Source of the DNA: a virus
Virus record (IMG/VR): IMGVR_UViG_3300018080_000596
Span: 1-23,664 of that record
DNA length: 23,664 nucleotides
Strand: one strand, 5' to 3'
The position numbers were made by a program, and so were the translations under genes. This document shows, piece after piece, positions 3,617 through 22,477 of the stretch (positions within the stretch are counted from its first letter, which is position 1; every line of letters starts with the position of its first letter). Below the pieces are notes generated by a model. It had not been told where the DNA came from. It was given only the letters and a program-made list of their open reading frames with translations, and made no database searches.

Positions 3617-4999
3617 TTAAGCAGCAATTATCCAGAAAGTAAGGATGCAGTCCCCATTGAGCGCTGCGGCTCCTTCATTGATGCATGTAACTTCAAATGA
3701 ACCAGCTTTTGGCTCTACACGAGTTATAGACATTTGGGCATCATTGGTTCCAACGTTAGCCATTGTGCATAGTATTGCAGAAGTTGTTGTGCACAAACTG
3801 TTTGTTACAGTGAACACTTGTGATGCAGCACTTGCAACTGTGAGTCCTGTAAACGTTCCAACACCAACATTGGCATTTATTGTTACAGCTGCTGCCGCTT
3901 GACTGTCAGCAACAGGAACCATATCAATAAATCCATCAGAGTCTAGTGTTATTCCACCTGTACCGGCAAGTATATCAATGCCGCCCGCAGCATGTGAAGC
4001 CTCAATAGTAATCGCACCACTAGATGCTAGCCCTGAATCAACATCTATTCCACCAGCAGTAGACTTCAATGACAAAGAATCAAGAGCAGTACCTTGAGCT
4101 ACCAATAGATCCATGGTTTCAGAGGTTCCGCCATCTGTCGTTAACAGAATCGCCTGTGTCGCATCCTCAGTTGCCTCTACAACAAATTGGCCACCAGTTG
4201 TTAGAAGGTTTAATCCACCTGTGCCAGCGGTCATTGTAATTCCGCCCGCTATGTTTGTTGCCCGTAAAGTCAAGGCATTTATAAGCGCAGCTCCAGCGTT
4301 AACATCTATTCCACCAACAGTAGAACCTATAGCCACAGAATCAACCGCTGTACCCTGTGAAGCAACGATATCTATAGTTTCTGAAGTTCCGCCATTTGTA
4401 TTCAACAAAATCGCCTGAGCGGCGTCATTCGTAGATGCTATAGTAATAGAACCTGTAGAATCACACGCAGTTCCCCCAGTTCCTGAATCCATATCAATTC
4501 CACCTGCGGCATTAGATGTAACAATCTTTAAAGCTGCGGCGCTAGCTAAACCAGCATCTAATCTTATTGCTCCAACATCTGCTGTTACGTTAATAGCAGC
4601 AGCACCGGTCCCTTGTACATTATTCAAGTGGATGGTCTCACTTGTACCGCCATCGGTTTCTAGCAGTATTGCATCTGCAGCGTCATCATCGGCTTCTATA
4701 TGACAGGTACCAGAAGACATTGTAAAACTGTCACCCGCTGTAATAAAACTTGTAGTGGTAACACTTGTAAAGGTTCCACTTCCCCCACCTGCATTTATCC
4801 ATGTTGATACACCCGCTGTTATATCAACCAAGAAAAATACATCTTTACCAGGATTATATATCCATGGTGTGCCAATTTCAGCTCTATCCTTAGTAGTAGG
4901 AGCCCTGTCTGCTACCACTGGAATAGGAGCCATATCTATTAATGGCTTACCAACACCGTATGCAAGATTTCTTTCTATGTACCTTCTATCATATGCCAT
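3617..4999 (-). CDS. Beta-strand repeat fibre protein, 460 aa
   Basis: ATG at 4999 has AAGGA 6 nt upstream. The N-terminal ~75 residues (IERNLAYGVGKPLIDMAPIP, then TPWIYNP) look like a virion-attachment domain. Residues ~103-355 form three repeats of ~87 residues, each with AQAILLxTxGGTSETxDL near its start (at about 105, 191 and 278) followed by VGGIDVxAG and AGGIxMxAGTGG units, suggesting a beta-helical or beta-roll shaft rich in Gly, Ala, Ser and Thr. Residues ~410-460 form a distinct C-terminal domain with three cysteines. The gene stands between a divergent plus-strand unit and its own terminator, so it may be a separate transcription unit. Likely a tail or head fibre; receptor specificity cannot be read from the sequence. 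Confidence 0.8.
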   Translation of the reverse strand: MAYDRRYIERNLAYGVGKPLIDMAPIPVVADRAPTTKDRAEIGTPWIYNPGKDVFFLVDITAGVSTWINAGGGSGTFTSVTTTSFITAGDSFTMSSGTCHIEADDDAADAILLETDGGTSETIHLNNVQGTGAAAINVTADVGAIRLDAGLASAAALKIVTSNAAGGIDMDSGTGGTACDSTGSITIASTNDAAQAILLNTNGGTSETIDIVASQGTAVDSVAIGSTVGGIDVNAGAALINALTLRATNIAGGITMTAGTGGLNLLTTGGQFVVEATEDATQAILLTTDGGTSETMDLLVAQGTALDSLSLKSTAGGIDVDSGLASSGAITIEASHAAGGIDILAGTGGITLDSDGFIDMVPVADSQAAAAVTINANVGVGTFTGLTVASAASQVFTVTNSLCTTTSAILCTMANVGTNDAQMSITRVEPKAGSFEVTCINEGAAALNGDCILTFWIIAA

Positions 5000-5124
5000 A
5001 ATAATTCCTTATTTCTGCATTAACAATTTTACTATCAACTCAAAATAATAAGATATAGTTATATAGCGCTACTAAAAAAATAACTTTTGTCACCAAAATA
5101 ACGATACAAATAGAAAGGATAATT

Positions 5125-5298
5125 ATGAATAAAGGTATAGTTCTTATGCTTTTTACATCGATATTAACTTCAAATTGCGCACGATATTCACCACCACCTA
5201 AAAAAGGATCCAAAGAATATCTAGACGAAAGAAGGCTTGTTAAAAAAATGATCAACGAGGCCAACAATCGAAACAAAACAAAGAGAACCAAGAAGTGA
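5125..5298 (+). CDS. Small lipoprotein-like secreted peptide, 57 aa
   Basis: A short plus-strand frame starts at ATG 5125 with AAAGGA 5-6 nt upstream. Residues 1-17 form a signal peptide (MNKGIVLMLFTSILTSN) followed by Cys18. The residue before Cys is Asn rather than Gly/Ala/Ser, so the lipobox is imperfect. The mature part is ~40 residues, begins CARYSPPPKKG and is then highly charged and helical. Size, signal and a proline-rich start after Cys recall Rz1-type outer spanins, but no inner-spanin partner is adjacent, so this is only a resemblance. It could also be a lipoprotein that alters the host surface. Its TGA overlaps the GTG of the next gene by 4 nt, so the pair is probably translated together. 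Confidence 0.6.
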   Translation: MNKGIVLMLFTSILTSNCARYSPPPKKGSKEYLDERRLVKKMINEANNRNKTKRTKK

Positions 5299-5444
5299 AA
5301 CGCTTCGGGAGAAGAAGGCTATCATTAGATATACCAACTTATTTTCATACGAAACTAAAAGCTATATCTAAAAAGAGAAATATAACTATGACAAAAATAT
5401 TACTACGCTTGATCTGTTATTATATTTCACAAGAAAAAGATTAA
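5295..5444 (+). CDS. Ribbon-helix-helix DNA-binding protein, 49 aa
   Basis: GTG at 5295 overlaps the lipoprotein stop as GTGA; a purine-rich AAGAGAACCAAGAA precedes it. The product has a basic N-terminus (MKRFGRRR), a beta strand RLSLDIP, helix A (YFHTKLKAISKKR), a short turn and helix B beginning NITMTKILLRLICYYISQ. This strand-helix-helix order with alternating R-L-S-L-D-I in the strand is the hallmark of Arc/CopG/MetJ-type repressors, which bind operators as dimers through the strand. The stop TAA shares the palindrome TTAA with the stop of the convergent 1194-aa gene. Likely role: transcription regulator of its own unit or of phage genes. The fold call is strong for such a short protein; the target is unknown. 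Confidence 0.75.
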   Translation: MKRFGRRRLSLDIPTYFHTKLKAISKKRNITMTKILLRLICYYISQEKD

Positions 5445-8400
5445 CTTCTTCTTGCCCTTCGAGGTCTTCTGCGTCTTCTAGATTTTCGCTCCTCTAATAA
5501 CGACTTAGCGTAATCCTTTGTAAATTCACCTTCTCTTTTGAGTCGCTTTATTGCAGTTGTAAAAATATTATTAACAGATTGCTGTGATGGCTCCAATCTG
5601 TCAGATAGCATCTGTTTTTTTAGGACCTTAATGTGCCGCTCTCTTCTTAATGGGTTTTCTATCTTCATTATTTTATCAACCCTGCTAGAATATTTATCCC
5701 TAAACAACTGACCACGCACAGAACCAATACGACGATTAATGTCATCATCAAATACCCTATTATCTTTTAATTTTTCTCTTATAGCATTTAACTTTCTCTC
5801 ACCACGATCTTTATTGGGGTCCTTAAGAGCATTCTCTATAGCTGGTGTAGCTTTAAACAATGAAGTTTCCTTTGATATTGGGAACGTTCCAAAAGCTGAT
5901 GCTATCCATTGCTTCATGCCTCCACGCACAGAGAAAGGCAGTACACCCTTTGCAGTCTCTAGAGCACGTCTTCCAATCTGCTTAAATCCTTTTTCCCCTT
6001 GCCATGCAACCATCTTACCGCCCTTACGTGTTGCATCAACGGCAAATGATCCATATTCAGACGGTGTAGAGTTTGCCAGCTGCTTCCATATCTCTTGTAT
6101 TGCAGGAGTAGATTTATTGTACATAGTAGACACAAGTTTATCTAATCCGCTAACATATCCACCAAGCTCAAGGAATTGTTTACCTAAGTGTGATTCCATA
6201 ATGGTACCATCAGGGTGACGACCGAACTGAACTACATCGCTCTTATTTGGACCATACTTTATATCAATTTGTGGTATTTTCCAACTCATCATGCTGCGGA
6301 TCATTGGTAAGCCACCTTCGCCCATCTTGACATTACCCAACTCTTTTAGGCCACGACTAGGATCAAAACCAACAGATTTATCTTCTTTTTGATATATGCT
6401 ACCCATAAACGCTCTCATTAAGCTAGCTCTAACTACATTATTAAATAAGTATCTAGCCATATAGCGACGACCAATTTGGCCAGCTAGTCCTGGCTTAAAT
6501 GCACCCATAGCTTGCTTAATGTTAGATATTGTCCAATCTGGATATGCTATAACTCTACGCATTAACTTTCTTGATCTAGCAGTCTTAAAGAACTTACTAG
6601 TTTCCCAGTTTTGACCACCAAATACATTGTTTATCTGCTCAGCCACGATACTATTTATTTTTTTAGCCTCTGCTGTACTTGCTTTCCTGCCATGAGTTTT
6701 CTCAAACATCTCTACTTGAGCGTTAGATATTTCATGGAACGCTACACGTTTTGCATTAGGAATAAACTCTTGATGTAGATAACCCATCCCACGTTGTATC
6801 TTTTTTAGCGATAGCGGGCCTTTTGACGCGCCTGGAGGAGTTTGTCCTAAGAAGTATTCAAGTCCCTTCTCGAGCATATTAGACCCCTTCTTGAGGCGCA
6901 ACGATTCTATAGGTTTAACTTGGAGTCCAGACTCAGCTGCCTTAGAGACTGCTTGTCTGTTTTCACCAAGCATCTTACCTTGGTTCATCAAGTCTACTAA
7001 TCTTAACGATTTCTTTAGGCCTAACTGTCCAGCTATGTTTTCTATTTGTGTTGCATAGTGGAACGGACTAATAGCTACTCGTGCTATACGTACAAACTGG
7101 TTGGCCCTATCAAAGGCTTTCCAGTACCATGCATCAGGCGCAGACATCCCTTTCTGTGTGAATACGCCAGCCATTTCGCTCGCAAATTCAGGTGACACGT
7201 ATGCTGGCTTTGACTGGTACTTGAATGAACCATCTTTTTGTGGAACAGCTTTTAGTAGAGGATCATCAAATCTCTTGTAACCTTTTTTAACGTATTCCGC
7301 CTTTTGTGCCTCTGATTCTGGATGCACTATAAACTTGTTGCCCTCTAAGTTTTGAAGGTCACGCACTTCGCTCAATAGTTTAGTATCAGCTTGGATCCTC
7401 AATTGCTGTTGACCATATTTTTTCACCAAGTCAAAAGGATTAGAATACTTAGGAGTCAATCCGCCTTTCTCCATAGCATCTGCTAATGTTAGGAAAGTTT
7501 TAGAGTTAGCTGCAGGATTCTTAATCTTTAGCTTAGACATCGTACGGTCAAATACTTCTTTAACACGTGCTGGTGACTCTTGATAGTATCCTGGCAGGTA
7601 GACTTCTTTTACGGCCTCACGTGGATTTATCTTTTTTAATAGTGGGTTCTTATTGTTCTCTTTAAGCATATTGTCAAAATACTTAGTAAAATCTTTAGCT
7701 AGTCCCTTTTGCTCTGCAGTCATTCGTTGATTTAATTTTCCAAAAGTATCACCGGGAACATTAGGGTTACCCCTTTTTTGCATCCAGTGCATTATATCTT
7801 GTCCCTGCTTTGCAGTTATCTCACCATACTTTTGAGTATATGCTTTTTGCTTCTGATCCCAATCAAAATTATGCTCTGCTGTTCTTTTCCATGATTCACC
7901 TAAGCTTTCTTTTAATAATCCATGTAGCTTCTTAGATTTTGCTCGAGACTCAGGGATCCCTTTAAGGTACTCTGACAGTCTCTTTCCACCTAGGCTTTCA
8001 GGAACTATCTTCTTGGCTAATTTTGATGCGGTTTCGAATCTAGCTTGTTCTGCTGCTTTTTGTGTTGCGGTCTCTATAGATGTTTTAGGTTTACCAATAA
8101 TAGGTTTAGTGTAAGCTTTTGCTTTTCTTCCAGCTGCATGCATGAGGTCCATGCCAAAAAGGAGCGCTGCATCATCACCTACCTGTTCCGCAGTTGGCAA
8201 CTTAATCTTCCCTTCAGCAATAGACTCAACCACACCTCTTGATCCTGTCAGAGCTCCAAGTTGTGCACCCTTATTTGCAAGGTAGAATCCTGGCTTAGTA
8301 TTAAGTATCTTACTTACACCTGGTATCTTCTTTAATATTGGAATAGATTTACCTAACGCAGGAGCAGCAACACCAAATAAACCACCCATTGCTCCAGATT

Positions 8401-9025
8401 GTGCGGTAGCAGATGATACGTTTTTAGCTGATTCTAAGAATCCTTGGAATGATGCAGTACCGCCTTTATCAACATAGTTCTCATATTCAGCGAACGATTG
8501 CTTTATTAGCGTTGGAAGTGCAAGCATTCCTGCTCCACCACCTATAATTCCACCTACACCTGCGCCACCCACTGTACCAGCGCCAGGTATAACAGATCCT
8601 GCAACGCCTCCAATAACCCCACCAATTGGAGTACCGATAGATTGACCTAATTGCATAACTGGAAGATCACCAAGAACCTCACCAGCCATCCTAAGATAAT
8701 GATCTACCCATCCACTTTCTTCTTCAGGAAGATCATCCTTAAGGCCCCAAATATGTTTTATAGGTTTACCAGTTGCACTTTTAAGCCAGCCTTTCCTAAA
8801 AGATTGATACATAGATGCAGTTTTTGGATTAGACTTTACATTATTCTCGGCCATATTATAGAAATCATTTTCTGAAAATCCAGTAGCCTTTGGTGACTGC
8901 TTAGTTGATGTACGAGGTTTTGCCATATTCATAAAATCATTTTCTGATATAGTTGGTGCAGCTTTCCTAGAAGGCCTTATACTAGCTGATCCACCTGCTA
9001 ACTTGAGAAATTCAGATTCTGTCAT
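5441..9025 (-). CDS. Large internal virion (ejection-type / polyvalent) protein, 1194 aa
   Basis: ATG at 9025 has AAGGA 6 nt upstream; the site overlaps the start of the spacer after the neighbour. The N-terminus carries three short motifs, TESEFLKLA (2-10), SENDFMNMA (27-35) and SENDFYNMA (51-59). Residues ~127-168 are a glycine-zipper hydrophobic segment (GGVIGGVAGSVIPGAG and GGIIGGGAG) able to insert in membranes. A long Lys-rich helical body follows, with a region around VRIARVAISPFHYATQIEN that resembles the ISPxxxxxN patterns of phage large polyvalent proteins. The C-terminus ends in a run of arginines. Size, position after the nozzle, and lack of enzyme motifs fit a protein packaged in the head and injected with the DNA. 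No lysozyme or polymerase motif was seen. Confidence 0.75.
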   Translation of the reverse strand: MTESEFLKLAGGSASIRPSRKAAPTISENDFMNMAKPRTSTKQSPKATGFSENDFYNMAENNVKSNPKTASMYQSFRKGWLKSATGKPIKHIWGLKDDLPEEESGWVDHYLRMAGEVLGDLPVMQLGQSIGTPIGGVIGGVAGSVIPGAGTVGGAGVGGIIGGGAGMLALPTLIKQSFAEYENYVDKGGTASFQGFLESAKNVSSATAQSGAMGGLFGVAAPALGKSIPILKKIPGVSKILNTKPGFYLANKGAQLGALTGSRGVVESIAEGKIKLPTAEQVGDDAALLFGMDLMHAAGRKAKAYTKPIIGKPKTSIETATQKAAEQARFETASKLAKKIVPESLGGKRLSEYLKGIPESRAKSKKLHGLLKESLGESWKRTAEHNFDWDQKQKAYTQKYGEITAKQGQDIMHWMQKRGNPNVPGDTFGKLNQRMTAEQKGLAKDFTKYFDNMLKENNKNPLLKKINPREAVKEVYLPGYYQESPARVKEVFDRTMSKLKIKNPAANSKTFLTLADAMEKGGLTPKYSNPFDLVKKYGQQQLRIQADTKLLSEVRDLQNLEGNKFIVHPESEAQKAEYVKKGYKRFDDPLLKAVPQKDGSFKYQSKPAYVSPEFASEMAGVFTQKGMSAPDAWYWKAFDRANQFVRIARVAISPFHYATQIENIAGQLGLKKSLRLVDLMNQGKMLGENRQAVSKAAESGLQVKPIESLRLKKGSNMLEKGLEYFLGQTPPGASKGPLSLKKIQRGMGYLHQEFIPNAKRVAFHEISNAQVEMFEKTHGRKASTAEAKKINSIVAEQINNVFGGQNWETSKFFKTARSRKLMRRVIAYPDWTISNIKQAMGAFKPGLAGQIGRRYMARYLFNNVVRASLMRAFMGSIYQKEDKSVGFDPSRGLKELGNVKMGEGGLPMIRSMMSWKIPQIDIKYGPNKSDVVQFGRHPDGTIMESHLGKQFLELGGYVSGLDKLVSTMYNKSTPAIQEIWKQLANSTPSEYGSFAVDATRKGGKMVAWQGEKGFKQIGRRALETAKGVLPFSVRGGMKQWIASAFGTFPISKETSLFKATPAIENALKDPNKDRGERKLNAIREKLKDNRVFDDDINRRIGSVRGQLFRDKYSSRVDKIMKIENPLRRERHIKVLKKQMLSDRLEPSQQSVNNIFTTAIKRLKREGEFTKDYAKSLLEERKSRRRRRPRRARRS

Positions 9026-16742: not shown

Positions 16743-17702
16743 TTATGCTAATATCGTGCAACGTAATTTAACTATCCAAGCATCATTCAAGATAACTGGA
16801 GCTTGACGCATCTTATATGCAAGCGTGCAGTATTGCTCTAGAGCATCTGCATATCTTGGTGGATGATAAATAAGATCCTGACTAAAGTTATTTTGTTCTA
16901 TAACAGCGTAACTTTCCATTCCTGGAATGAAGATCTCATATACGTCATTACCGTTCATCGAAGAGTTTGGAACTATCTTACCTTCAGAGGACAAGAAGAA
17001 TCTAATGTTTCCAGCTTGACCCCACTCTGAATTTGCAATGTTTCTTTGATCTGGATATTCAGCTTTATGGGTAAACTTAGCAAGAGCTTCAATATCAGAA
17101 CTTAAATCTGTATGTGCAAACGCAAAGTACGAGTTTCTTTGAGGAGCTGTACCAAACTTATCTTCTGCTTCAATCTTTTGTCCAATAGTCCATGCATTAT
17201 TGCCTAACATTGTTTTTGTGACTTTTTGGATATCAGAATACATTAGATTTGTTGGGTTATCTCCGTTTACACCACCTGTAGCATTAATCTGTGTAGCTGT
17301 AGCAGATAGCATTTCACGAATCAACTCATCTTCTGTTCTTCTCATAGACTCACCAAGAAGCTTCACATGCTCGTTGAGCACAGGATCTTGGTTAGTAAGA
17401 GTAACAGTCTCTGTAATTTTTACATATTGCCCGTATGTTCTGAGAGTAGCATCAACGTCTACTTTTGATGTTGGAGTTGGAGGTATCTCTACACCCAAAT
17501 CTTCATCAAGAGGAGTTGTTGCTGTTGGCAAGTTATTGTATCGCCTTGCTCTCCAAGTTCTACCCGCTTTGTCAGGCATAACTTTTCTCAGCGCTGCAAT
17601 ACCATGGATTAAGTTAGGAAGTTCAATAGACAAAAGTGTTTGTTCAAACCAAATCTGGACTGGCGCTGGAAGCATACTAGGACCAATTACATTGGACGCC
17701 AT
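16743..17702 (-). CDS. Major capsid protein, N4-gp56 family, 319 aa
   Basis: ATG at 17702 has AAGGA 6 nt upstream. The protein contains the hallmark segment TLRTYGQYVKITETVTLTNQ, then DPVLNEHVKLLGE and RRTEDELIREML (about residues 85-130), seen in N4-gp56-type HK97-fold capsid proteins, preceded by the RKVMPDKAGRTWRARRYNNL and TTPLDEDLG region. The C-terminus ends TLAYKMRQAPVILNDAWIVK, also typical. No protease-cleaved delta domain is evident, in agreement with a separate scaffold gene upstream. It has its own promoter-like spacer with a tandem palindromic repeat and an upstream terminator. Confidence 0.9.
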   Translation of the reverse strand: MASNVIGPSMLPAPVQIWFEQTLLSIELPNLIHGIAALRKVMPDKAGRTWRARRYNNLPTATTPLDEDLGVEIPPTPTSKVDVDATLRTYGQYVKITETVTLTNQDPVLNEHVKLLGESMRRTEDELIREMLSATATQINATGGVNGDNPTNLMYSDIQKVTKTMLGNNAWTIGQKIEAEDKFGTAPQRNSYFAFAHTDLSSDIEALAKFTHKAEYPDQRNIANSEWGQAGNIRFFLSSEGKIVPNSSMNGNDVYEIFIPGMESYAVIEQNNFSQDLIYHPPRYADALEQYCTLAYKMRQAPVILNDAWIVKLRCTILA

Positions 17703-19104: not shown

Positions 19105-19593
19105 ATGAAAATATTGGCAATTGACCCTGGAACACGATTCGCTGGCTACGCTGTGATGCAAAAAAAAGGACGCTCAATACAGCTTCTAGACCATGGATTA
19201 CTAAAAATTAAAACCACAAACGGATGGACACATAGAGTAGGAACATACTACGATTTCTTCTTAAAGAAAATACAAGACCATAAAGTAGAAGATCTATGTT
19301 TCGAAACCCCATTCCTATACAGAAATCCATCTACCTTTATGAAACTAGGTTACATAAGGGGTATTAATTACCTACTAGCACATCAATTTAATTTAAATTT
19401 GCATGAATATTCACCATCAGAAGTTAAACAGGCTACCTGCCTTAAAGGGAATGCCTCTAAGCAACAGGTAGCTTGTGCAGTATATAAGTATTTCCCCACT
19501 CTAGAAAGATCACTAAAAGATGATATCACTGATGCAATCTCAGTTGGACTATGCAGGCTAGTCGCTAATAGACTCTATAATAAACCCAGCTAG
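19105..19593 (+). CDS. ruvC: RuvC-like Holliday junction resolvase, 162 aa
   Basis: Start is ATG 19105 (second of two adjacent ATGs), because AAGGA ends 4 nt before it; upstream extension of the frame has no site and overlaps the divergent gene. The RuvC active site is complete: Asp7 in LAIDPGTRFAGYAV, Glu67 in LCFETPF, and Asp140 and Asp143 in KDDITDAISVGL. KLGYIRGINYLL after Glu67 matches the helix KLGxARG of bacterial RuvC, and length is near the usual ~170 aa. It is on the plus strand inside the minus-strand head operon, with a 36-bp convergent overlap with the 95-aa gene. Likely role: cleaving branched replication intermediates before packaging, as phage resolvases do. Confidence 0.9.
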   Translation: MKILAIDPGTRFAGYAVMQKKGRSIQLLDHGLLKIKTTNGWTHRVGTYYDFFLKKIQDHKVEDLCFETPFLYRNPSTFMKLGYIRGINYLLAHQFNLNLHEYSPSEVKQATCLKGNASKQQVACAVYKYFPTLERSLKDDITDAISVGLCRLVANRLYNKPS

Positions 19594-19845
19594 CGATACA
19601 CCAGCACTAACAACTGATACACCTGCGCCAACTAAGACCGTAACAAGTTTTACAACATCCCTTGGCGTAAACCCACCACACCGTGTTGTTGCTCTATTCT
19701 GTTCTGTGGCGAGCCGTCTTTCTCGACGATCTTCCACACTATATCTTTCAATGCGAGTTTTCTTTTTTTTAAGTTTTCGCATCTTAAATCTAGCAGGGAA
19801 CATACTTGTAGAACACAATAAAAGAATTAATATAATTCTTTTCAC
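19558..19845 (-). CDS. Small membrane/secreted protein, 95 aa
   Basis: The start is GTG 19845, supported by AAGGAGG 6 nt upstream; a longer frame starting at 19878 lacks any site. The N-terminus (MKRIILILLLCSTSMFP) is a signal or anchor segment with a Cys that lacks a good lipobox. A highly basic middle follows (FKMRKLKKKKTRIERYSVED), and residues ~65-90 form a second hydrophobic segment rich in Gly/Ala/Val (VTVLVGAGVSVVSAGVSLAG). Two hydrophobic ends around a charged core would suit a membrane-acting lysis or virion peptide, but no family is recognised. The last 36 bp overlap the 3' end of ruvC on the other strand. Confidence 0.6.
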   Translation of the reverse strand: MKRIILILLLCSTSMFPARFKMRKLKKKKTRIERYSVEDRRERRLATEQNRATTRCGGFTPRDVVKLVTVLVGAGVSVVSAGVSLAGFIIESISD

Positions 19846-19922
19846 GATGAGCCTCCTTCTATTAAAGGATAAAAACATACTATCTATAGGGTAACATTAA
19901 TTAAATACAGATTAATAGAAAA

Positions 19923-20389: not shown

Positions 20390-22477
20390 TTATACATTTG
20401 CAGGCTGCCCTACACCACTTTCGTTTTTAGTTTGATCCTGGTTATCTCGCGATATCTGTTTAAACATAGATTGCTCTAACGGTGAAGGCGTAGCTACATC
20501 TACTTTTTCAGGTACACTTTGCTGGCTCAATAAACCTGAAAGCTGTAGAAGTTTCTCAATCTGCGCCAACTTAGAGTCATCAATCTCTGTAAGAGTCTTA
20601 GCCATATTAAGTATAGCCTGTTGCCTATCTTTCTCAGCTTCAGCCAACCGCTCAATAGCAAACGCTCTATTTTCAGGCACCCTGCTTGTTCTTTCAAGCG
20701 CCCATCCAAGATCTGCTTTAGCTTTAGCCTGCATAGCTTCAATCTGAGCACTAACAAGATCAAGCTGTGACTGCATTTGCATCTGCTGTATCTGCGCTTG
20801 CTCTTGTTTATCTCTAGCAACAGCTTCCAACAACTCTGTTTTATTTTGAACAGTAAGTGCTTGTAGTATACTCTCGTCAGGTATAGGCACACCCATCTCT
20901 TTAACATGTAATAACTGTGCTAACTCTAATTGTCTCTGTGTTGTAGTGTTTACACCTTCTTCTATTGCAGAATCATACTTGCCAAACGCTTTATGGTAAA
21001 ACTCTTCCGTAGGCTCCTCATCAATGATTCTCATTACCTTACCTGCCGTAAAGTTTCTCTGCACAATCCTAAGTATAATTGAGCCTAACAACTTTTGAGA
21101 CCTATCTAAAAGATCAAATAATGGCCTAAGTGTAGTTAATGCTGCACCTTGCCTTAACTGTGATAATATCCCTGCTTTGTCATCAGTTGCGCTGCCGAGT
21201 AGTTCTTCGTTAACTCCCGATATTTGGGGAAGTTCGTTAGCCATACTCTCTGAAAGTTGGAATGTAGATTGAGGGATAACTGGAGGATCCTTAAACATAA
21301 TATCTGTTATCTCAGCATCATGCTTTAACACCATTATCTGCCCAGTATCCTTCTTGAACACATCATCAAAATTAACTAATGCATCCTCTTTAACTATGAT
21401 ACCTGTATTTATCTGGCTCTCAATAAGATCATTCTCATTAGCCTTTCTCCTATTGTAGAGCCATTGAGCGTCCCTAAGGTTTCTAACCATCCCTTGAATT
21501 CTATTGCAGATATCATCAGACTCAGGCCTATAATAAGCCAACACAGGCACAAAAGGATAGGTATCTATCCCTAAAGTATTACGCCCATCATAAATAACAT
21601 TACCCTGAACAACTAAAGACAAATTAACAGTAGGTATCTCCTGCTCAACAACTTCAATCTCAGGAAAGAACGATAAGTACTCTAATAAATCTTCCTCAGA
21701 CCCTGTCCATTCTTTACTATCACCGTTCCTCCTATCTACAAGCAACAACCTCTCTCTATATGTCCTATAGTAAAATTCATCATAAGTTAAAAGATTACGG
21801 TTACCATTAGTAAGATTCTCAGGCATATATGGAAACTTACCATCACGATCCTTCTTACCGCATGAGAACATAACCTCGTCTTTAAATCCTGGTAGTAACG
21901 ATGCACATTCTTCTCTTGTTAAATATGACCGTTTGAGTATACCATTACAGTCAGATAGATCAGATTTCCTAAAGTATGGATCTATAATGAAACTATTATA
22001 CTCGCAACGATCCACCTTGATATCACCTGAAATAGGGTCATCTCTGTAATCTACCCATACCTGAAGCAGGTTCATACCTGTAATTAGTGCTCCATGAAAT
22101 GCATCTGACACAGTCTCCAAAACGCTTTCATTCTTGTTTATCCACATCATTATTTTAGTAAACTGATCTGCTGTCTGCTGTGAAGCATTCTCTATAGGTA
22201 TAACAGTAGTAGAGTTCCTATTTTGACGTTGATAGCCACTCACCATATTAGGGATCCTGCGCACCCTATTTAAAGATATGACGCTCCTACCATAATCATC
22301 GGAATACCCAGGTAGAGACCTAAAGACATGTGGGTCACCCGCCTCTACTCTCACATCAATATTAGCCTCACTCCACCAGGCCTGATTCAAAGTAATTGCA
22401 TCTGTTCTAAATTTTTCTAAACGGTCCAAAACATCATTGCCACCGTAGCCAGGACCAATGTCTCTATGCACTGACAT
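20390..22477 (-). CDS. Portal protein, P22-like family, 695 aa
   Basis: ATG at 22477 has AAGGAG 5 nt upstream. The N-terminal part matches P22-type portals: RSVISLNRVRRIPNMVSGYQ followed by RQNR (about 65-88), IPIENASQQTADQFTKIM (94-110), SDAFHGALITGMNLLQVWVD (124-143) and CEYNSFIIDPYFR (158-170). The wing and stem continue with WLYNRRKANENDLIESQIN. Residues ~530-650 form the long Gln/Glu/Lys-rich helical barrel end (QEQAQIQQMQMQSQLDLVSA). Length is close to P22 gp1 (725 aa). It forms the dodecameric DNA-entry vertex, recruiting scaffold, terminase and adaptor. Confidence 0.9.
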   Translation of the reverse strand: MSVHRDIGPGYGGNDVLDRLEKFRTDAITLNQAWWSEANIDVRVEAGDPHVFRSLPGYSDDYGRSVISLNRVRRIPNMVSGYQRQNRNSTTVIPIENASQQTADQFTKIMMWINKNESVLETVSDAFHGALITGMNLLQVWVDYRDDPISGDIKVDRCEYNSFIIDPYFRKSDLSDCNGILKRSYLTREECASLLPGFKDEVMFSCGKKDRDGKFPYMPENLTNGNRNLLTYDEFYYRTYRERLLLVDRRNGDSKEWTGSEEDLLEYLSFFPEIEVVEQEIPTVNLSLVVQGNVIYDGRNTLGIDTYPFVPVLAYYRPESDDICNRIQGMVRNLRDAQWLYNRRKANENDLIESQINTGIIVKEDALVNFDDVFKKDTGQIMVLKHDAEITDIMFKDPPVIPQSTFQLSESMANELPQISGVNEELLGSATDDKAGILSQLRQGAALTTLRPLFDLLDRSQKLLGSIILRIVQRNFTAGKVMRIIDEEPTEEFYHKAFGKYDSAIEEGVNTTTQRQLELAQLLHVKEMGVPIPDESILQALTVQNKTELLEAVARDKQEQAQIQQMQMQSQLDLVSAQIEAMQAKAKADLGWALERTSRVPENRAFAIERLAEAEKDRQQAILNMAKTLTEIDDSKLAQIEKLLQLSGLLSQQSVPEKVDVATPSPLEQSMFKQISRDNQDQTKNESGVGQPANV

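Follow-up and report, generated by a model that had tools for sequence, protein, structure and literature searches.

An antisense ribbon-helix-helix gene conserved in the late cluster of a phage lineage as the probable core of an autoregulated Mnt/Arc-type unit

The stretch of DNA analysed here, referred to as the window, is a whole viral record of 23.7 kb. Its large genes, including the portal, major capsid and tail-type genes, all lie on the minus strand. A pair of short plus-strand genes opposes these late genes in the interval between a 460-aa and a 1194-aa late gene, and the two open reading frames overlap by GTGA (5295-5298). The coordinates, strand and overlaps of this pair agree exactly with the original prediction. 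The features of the locus are as follows.

20390-22477, minus strand: portal gene
16743-17702, minus strand: major capsid gene
5441-9025, minus strand: 1194-aa ejection-type late gene (family A5) with a Gly-rich N-terminal region; convergent flank
3617-4999, minus strand: 460-aa late gene with an N-terminal RAPTxxD motif; divergent flank
5125-5298, plus strand: 57-aa lipoprotein-like peptide, predicted to be exported (ATG with Shine-Dalgarno sequence, h-region)
5295-5444, plus strand: putative 49-aa ribbon-helix-helix (RHH) repressor, GTG start
5441-5444, no strand: TTAA common to the stops of the RHH gene and the 1194-aa gene
5112-5119, plus strand: Shine-Dalgarno sequence AGAAAGGA of the 57-aa peptide gene
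5104-5118, plus strand: leader ATACAAATAGAAAGG 5' of the peptide gene, the same as the leader directly before the RHH gene in the relative G011
5083-5099, plus strand: ACTTTTGTCACCAAAAT, a weak candidate for a diverged operator; it aligns with ACTTTTGTGTACACAAT in relatives
5020-5049, plus strand: weak promoter-like sequence TTAACA-18-AATAAT directed toward the pair (10/12 matches)

The window DNA, the 1194-aa protein and the 49-aa protein have no match among named phages. The 1194-aa gene presumably has a role in ejection; in a direct comparison no similarity was found between its family and P22 gp16. The tight fit of the plus-strand unit against this gene, noticed earlier from the shared TTAA, recurs as the same 4-base overlap of stops in five relatives (G002, G015, G011, G054 and G056). 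Elsewhere in the virion cluster of the window (19558-19878, minus strand) a 106-aa product is encoded that begins with a hydrophobic, signal-like segment, is very basic in its middle part and ends in a hydrophobic C-terminus; no Pfam match was found for it.

The 49-aa product can be assigned with confidence, from sequence comparison and structural modelling, to the RHH proteins, and the complete regulator that had been predicted is thereby borne out. It matches the PHROG Arc-like repressor family phrog_582 (E = 4e-4), as do 12 of the 14 aligned RHH proteins, and a profile of these 14 matches ParG, ORF56, ParD and Arc in the PDB; matches to Pfam lie below the cut-offs. The AlphaFold2 model of the protein has a mean pLDDT of 91.7, with helices at residues 15-28 and 32-48, and its top Foldseek neighbours are the RHH structures ORF56, CopASO, CopG and Arc. 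This model is of a monomer, in which the N-terminal strand is left unassigned, as the strand pairs only in the dimer. The protein thus has the N-terminal strand followed by two helices within about 45-50 residues that characterize the RHH (MetJ/Arc) fold, together with sequence similarity to curated RHH families. In single profile comparisons with Mnt and Arc, E values of 0.0013 and 0.01, respectively, were obtained, a likeness at the level of superfamily or fold only.

Searches with the major capsid protein or the 1194-aa protein alone pulled no relatives; the portal protein retrieved 80 viral contigs, with identities of 51-57%. When only the 49-aa protein served as the query, a match was present in 14 of 50 of the portal-pulled contigs (best E = 5.5e-12), the weakest of the 14 (G008) lying outside the slot occupied in the window. 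For a later count, relatives of the 1194-aa family were added and all were re-scored by HMM. An RHH gene was found in the slot in 28 records (27 including the window, and L139 by inspection), and the clear exception, without a slot RHH gene, is G058 (locus L151). The HMM was seeded with some of the counted proteins, so that this count leans toward inclusion, and the loci L136, L138 and L139 were fetched by the RHH protein itself; the 14 early matches are free of both biases. The layout is the same in nearly all cases: the RHH gene converges on the large late gene that precedes it and diverges from a second gene, here called the RAPT gene, the product of which begins with the motif PIxAxRAPTxxD. 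Since RHH relatives fill the same slot across the lineage, the RHH gene is not a chance reading frame. Both frames of the pair were sought in relatives, and only the RHH frame was recovered; as the 57-aa peptide has no detected relative, the conserved element is the RHH gene and not the pair.

The neighbours of the RHH gene on its own strand vary from phage to phage. The closest relatives carry the RHH gene alone in the slot, and many others encode small transmembrane (TM) peptides on the RHH strand. Where extra genes occur in relatives, the RHH gene comes first and the extra genes follow, whereas in the window the RHH gene is second and is preceded by the peptide gene. The spacers before the RHH genes of relatives are much shorter than that of the window.

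Several further features of these slots were observed. Directly 3' of the RHH gene, L110, L113, L117 and L128 encode small zinc-finger-like CxxC-CxxxC peptides, most of which have a C-terminal membrane segment and none of which matches a Pfam family above the cut-off. In three loci (L153:8926-9399, L155:10704-11153 and L157:10043-10522) an HNH_3-like nuclease domain precedes the slot RHH in a fusion protein, and in L127 a separate HNH-like gene adjoins the RHH gene. The N-terminal RAPTxxD motif, seen in the window (3617-4999) and in many relatives, is common to two subfamilies of late proteins, often in more than one copy per genome, and may serve fibre-like proteins as a shared anchor to the virion.

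As a gene, the 57-aa frame is less secure than the 49-aa RHH frame. It begins with ATG behind the strong Shine-Dalgarno sequence AGAAAGGA, and its product has a basic start, an h-region, GIVLMLFTSILT (mean KD 2.2), a cysteine at position 18 and a very basic remainder, from which a lipoprotein-like peptide is plausible. A signal peptide ending in Cys had been proposed; the basic start, the h-region and Cys18 are indeed present, but residues 15-18 read TSN-C, with Asn at position -1, and the strict lipobox PS51257, which calls for Ala, Gly or Ser before the Cys, is matched only when position -1 is relaxed. When the region was resampled by a Markov model, about 2% of the resamplings contained an ATG reading frame of at least this length by chance; the codon score of the frame does not discriminate. 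No relative of the peptide was detected among named phages, viral contigs or 232 Chlamydiota genomes, nor was a family match obtained. The leader ATACAAATAGAAAGG is identical to that directly 5' of the RHH gene in G011, a hint that the peptide gene may have come in between the RHH gene and an ancestral leader of that gene. An antisense frame of 83 aa (5040-5291, minus strand), the codon score of which is slightly better, was rejected as a mirror artefact: it starts with TTG, has no visible Shine-Dalgarno sequence and mirrors the Lys-rich peptide.

The spacer between the RHH and RAPT genes of relatives contains a decamer palindrome, TGTGTACACA, at 15 loci representing seven distinct phage records, among 221 loci searched (2.8 Mb). 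All copies lie in this spacer and nowhere else in the 2.8 Mb; about 0.04 would be expected per 38.9-kb genome. Because it is confined to RHH/RAPT spacers, TGTGTACACA is very likely to be an operator. In L146 it lies between TTGACT and TATACT, which belong to a promoter-like sequence directed at the RHH gene; this geometry would be that of an autorepressor. Residues R8, S10 and D12 of the window RHH protein, predicted by analogy to Arc to face the DNA, are the same in alignments as in most of the relatives bearing TGTGTACACA. Other relatives have different palindromes in the spacer, and as a group the spacers exceed resampled sequence in palindrome strength (combined p = 0.002), compared with p = 0.72 for a control stretch from the RAPT gene. 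The window spacer taken alone gives p = 0.54. Exact TGTGTACACA is absent from the window, and the extended form TTGTGTACACAA, with up to three mismatches, has 12 matches there against 15 expected, none of them in the spacer; the alignment of ACTTTTGTCACCAAAAT with ACTTTTGTGTACACAAT makes the former a weak candidate for a diverged operator. The promoter call at 5020-5049 is likewise weak, since five such sites were found in the region against 3.5 expected.

It had been proposed that the pair is an accessory, possibly borne by a prophage. This is not supported: the RHH gene is nearly universal in the lineage, and no tyrosine integrase was found in 33 lineage records and no resolvase or serine recombinase in 28, records that may be incomplete. 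Relatives of the portal occur in 10 of 232 Chlamydiota genomes versus 2 of 398 Pseudomonadota genomes (Fisher p = 0.001), where one of the two Pseudomonadota hits is the seed and two of the ten Chlamydiota hits are the loci that led there. The contigs in Chlamydiota bins that carry related portal genes include L141 and L223-L230, several of them phage-sized. Five of the seven contigs examined measure 35-41 kb, consistent with free phage genomes that were binned with their hosts, and the other two are shorter fragments. These data suggest tailed phages of environmental chlamydiae; few tailed phages of Chlamydiota are known. The stretches of these contigs that were examined contain no RHH match, so that the host assignment is tentative.

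Taking as established the RHH fold, the conserved slot and, in relatives, the palindrome unique to the spacer, we favour, and consider probable, an explanation by an autoregulated repressor unit of the Mnt/Arc type, antisense within the late cluster and with variable membrane-directed cargo. A promoter of its own between the RAPT gene and the RHH gene would transcribe against the late genes and would be switched off by RHH dimers bound to a palindromic operator within it. The unit would then yield a limited, probably early, burst and avoid collision with the late transcription that follows. The window peptide, encoded 5' of the RHH gene, would be translationally coupled to it, with the GTGA overlap keeping peptide and repressor in proportion; in relatives the cargo would be a small membrane or zinc-finger/membrane peptide encoded 3' of the RHH gene, or none. 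Such cargo would most likely act at the host envelope, for example in superinfection exclusion as does P22 SieA. The RHH identity, the slot in 28 records, the placement of TGTGTACACA, the palindrome excess of the group, the match at R8, S10 and D12, the TM peptides on the same strand and the layout of P22 all count for an autoregulated unit. Against it count the absence of TGTGTACACA from the window and its weak candidate site, the variable cargo, the peptide without a relative and the reversed gene order, as well as the superfamily-level similarity to Mnt/Arc and the contrast between temperate P22 and a lineage without a detected integrase.

The main rival is that the RHH protein acts chiefly on the late strand, its binding to the spacer or the antisense transcription setting passage into the RAPT tail gene, with the peptide incidental. 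That the RHH gene is conserved and its cargo is not, that TGTGTACACA is located between the RHH and RAPT genes, and that the ant moron of P22 has been proposed to affect the level of tailspike (PMC2629481) all speak for such control, but a late promoter of the RAPT gene is only hypothetical and the site in L146 fits a promoter of the RHH gene. We regard late-strand control as rather unlikely to be the principal function, yet the same anatomy would accommodate it, and both may apply. It is also unlikely, if only slightly more so, that the RHH gene alone is real and the 57-aa frame a chance reading frame in its 5' leader; the frequency of such frames in resampled sequence, the indecisive codon score and the lack of relatives agree with this, while the strong Shine-Dalgarno sequence, the signal-like sequence and the exact 4-base overlap with the RHH start, together with the much shorter spacers of relatives, argue for a gene.

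If the peptide is real, the locus might be a moron serving it, with a lipoprotein-like product for superinfection exclusion or alteration of the host surface and the RHH protein as its dedicated repressor. The signal-like start, Cys18 and GTGA coupling would suit such a moron, membrane peptides occur in other slots, and lipoprotein exclusion factors are known from other phages; we nevertheless hold it improbable, as the peptide occurs in this contig only, the slots of the closest relatives contain just the RHH gene and the lipobox departs from the strict pattern. A toxin-antitoxin or anti-CRISPR/Aca-like pair, to which weak matches with RHH antitoxin-type families and a small gene adjoining a repressor might point, is very improbable. 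The defining traits of a type II toxin-antitoxin system, a conserved partner and a toxin family match, were not found: neither a homologue nor a family match was obtained for the partner peptide, neighbours differ among phages and the window partner has a predicted export signal, and the toxin-antitoxin reading was set aside. So was the earlier proposal of a lysis factor: a unit running against the late genes is unlikely to serve lysis.

The immI region of P22 has hitherto been regarded as an accessory of lysogeny, present in some phages and absent from others. Here a distant lineage, in which no integration genes were detected, has an RHH gene in the slot almost without exception, which suggests a job for an antisense repressor in lytic late-gene control. 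It is conceivable, and put forward here only tentatively, that in these probably non-integrating phages, likely of Chlamydiota, the antisense RHH gene is core to late-gene control and sets the amount of transcription that continues from the ejection gene into the tail genes, that its operator specificity has diverged and that the slot gathers envelope-directed cargo. The unique palindrome TGTGTACACA is a direct, testable candidate operator, and the small membrane or exported peptides that accompany the RHH gene are candidate superinfection-exclusion factors of phages with likely Chlamydiota hosts.

Among known systems, T5 Llp and TP-J34 Ltp are superinfection-exclusion lipoproteins of phages. 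The window peptide resembles them as a small phage-encoded, predicted exported peptide with a candidate lipid-attachment Cys, and differs in its lack of a family match, its atypical lipobox and its coupling to an RHH gene. Closer in layout is the short immI of phages L and ST64T, which consists of an mnt homologue and one small gene of unknown function (PMC8022706, PMC2629481) and, like the window unit, combines an RHH gene with a single short gene in the same slot. The sequence link is the RHH fold only, and the immI of phage L has been described as possibly degenerate or repurposed, in contrast to the conserved RHH gene of the window lineage. In P22 itself the order is 16> <sieA <orf59a <mnt, arc> ant> 9>, and the separately oriented unit inside the late cluster, as originally proposed, is upheld in the sense of the P22 ant moron. 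Both units have an ejection gene (here a presumptive one) on one side and a tail gene on the other, the RHH repressor gene (its role here being presumed) is antisense and convergent on the ejection gene, and small genes share its strand, the membrane protein being SieA in P22 and the products of small membrane genes in our relatives. The window differs in having no ant and no late-strand arc, neither being found on the late strand between 4999 and 5441, and no sar RNA was seen. The ant moron, proposed to modulate tailspike read-through, varies greatly among P22-like phages or is missing altogether (PMC2629481), whereas the RHH gene is nearly always present here; P22 is temperate, while the window lineage, in records that may be incomplete, shows no sign of lysogeny, and its proteins are related to those of P22 at the superfamily level only. 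Because the similarity to Mnt/Arc is at the level of the fold, ant is absent and neither integrase nor resolvase was found, the unit is better said to work, by analogy, like the Mnt/Arc part of immI than to be an immI region.
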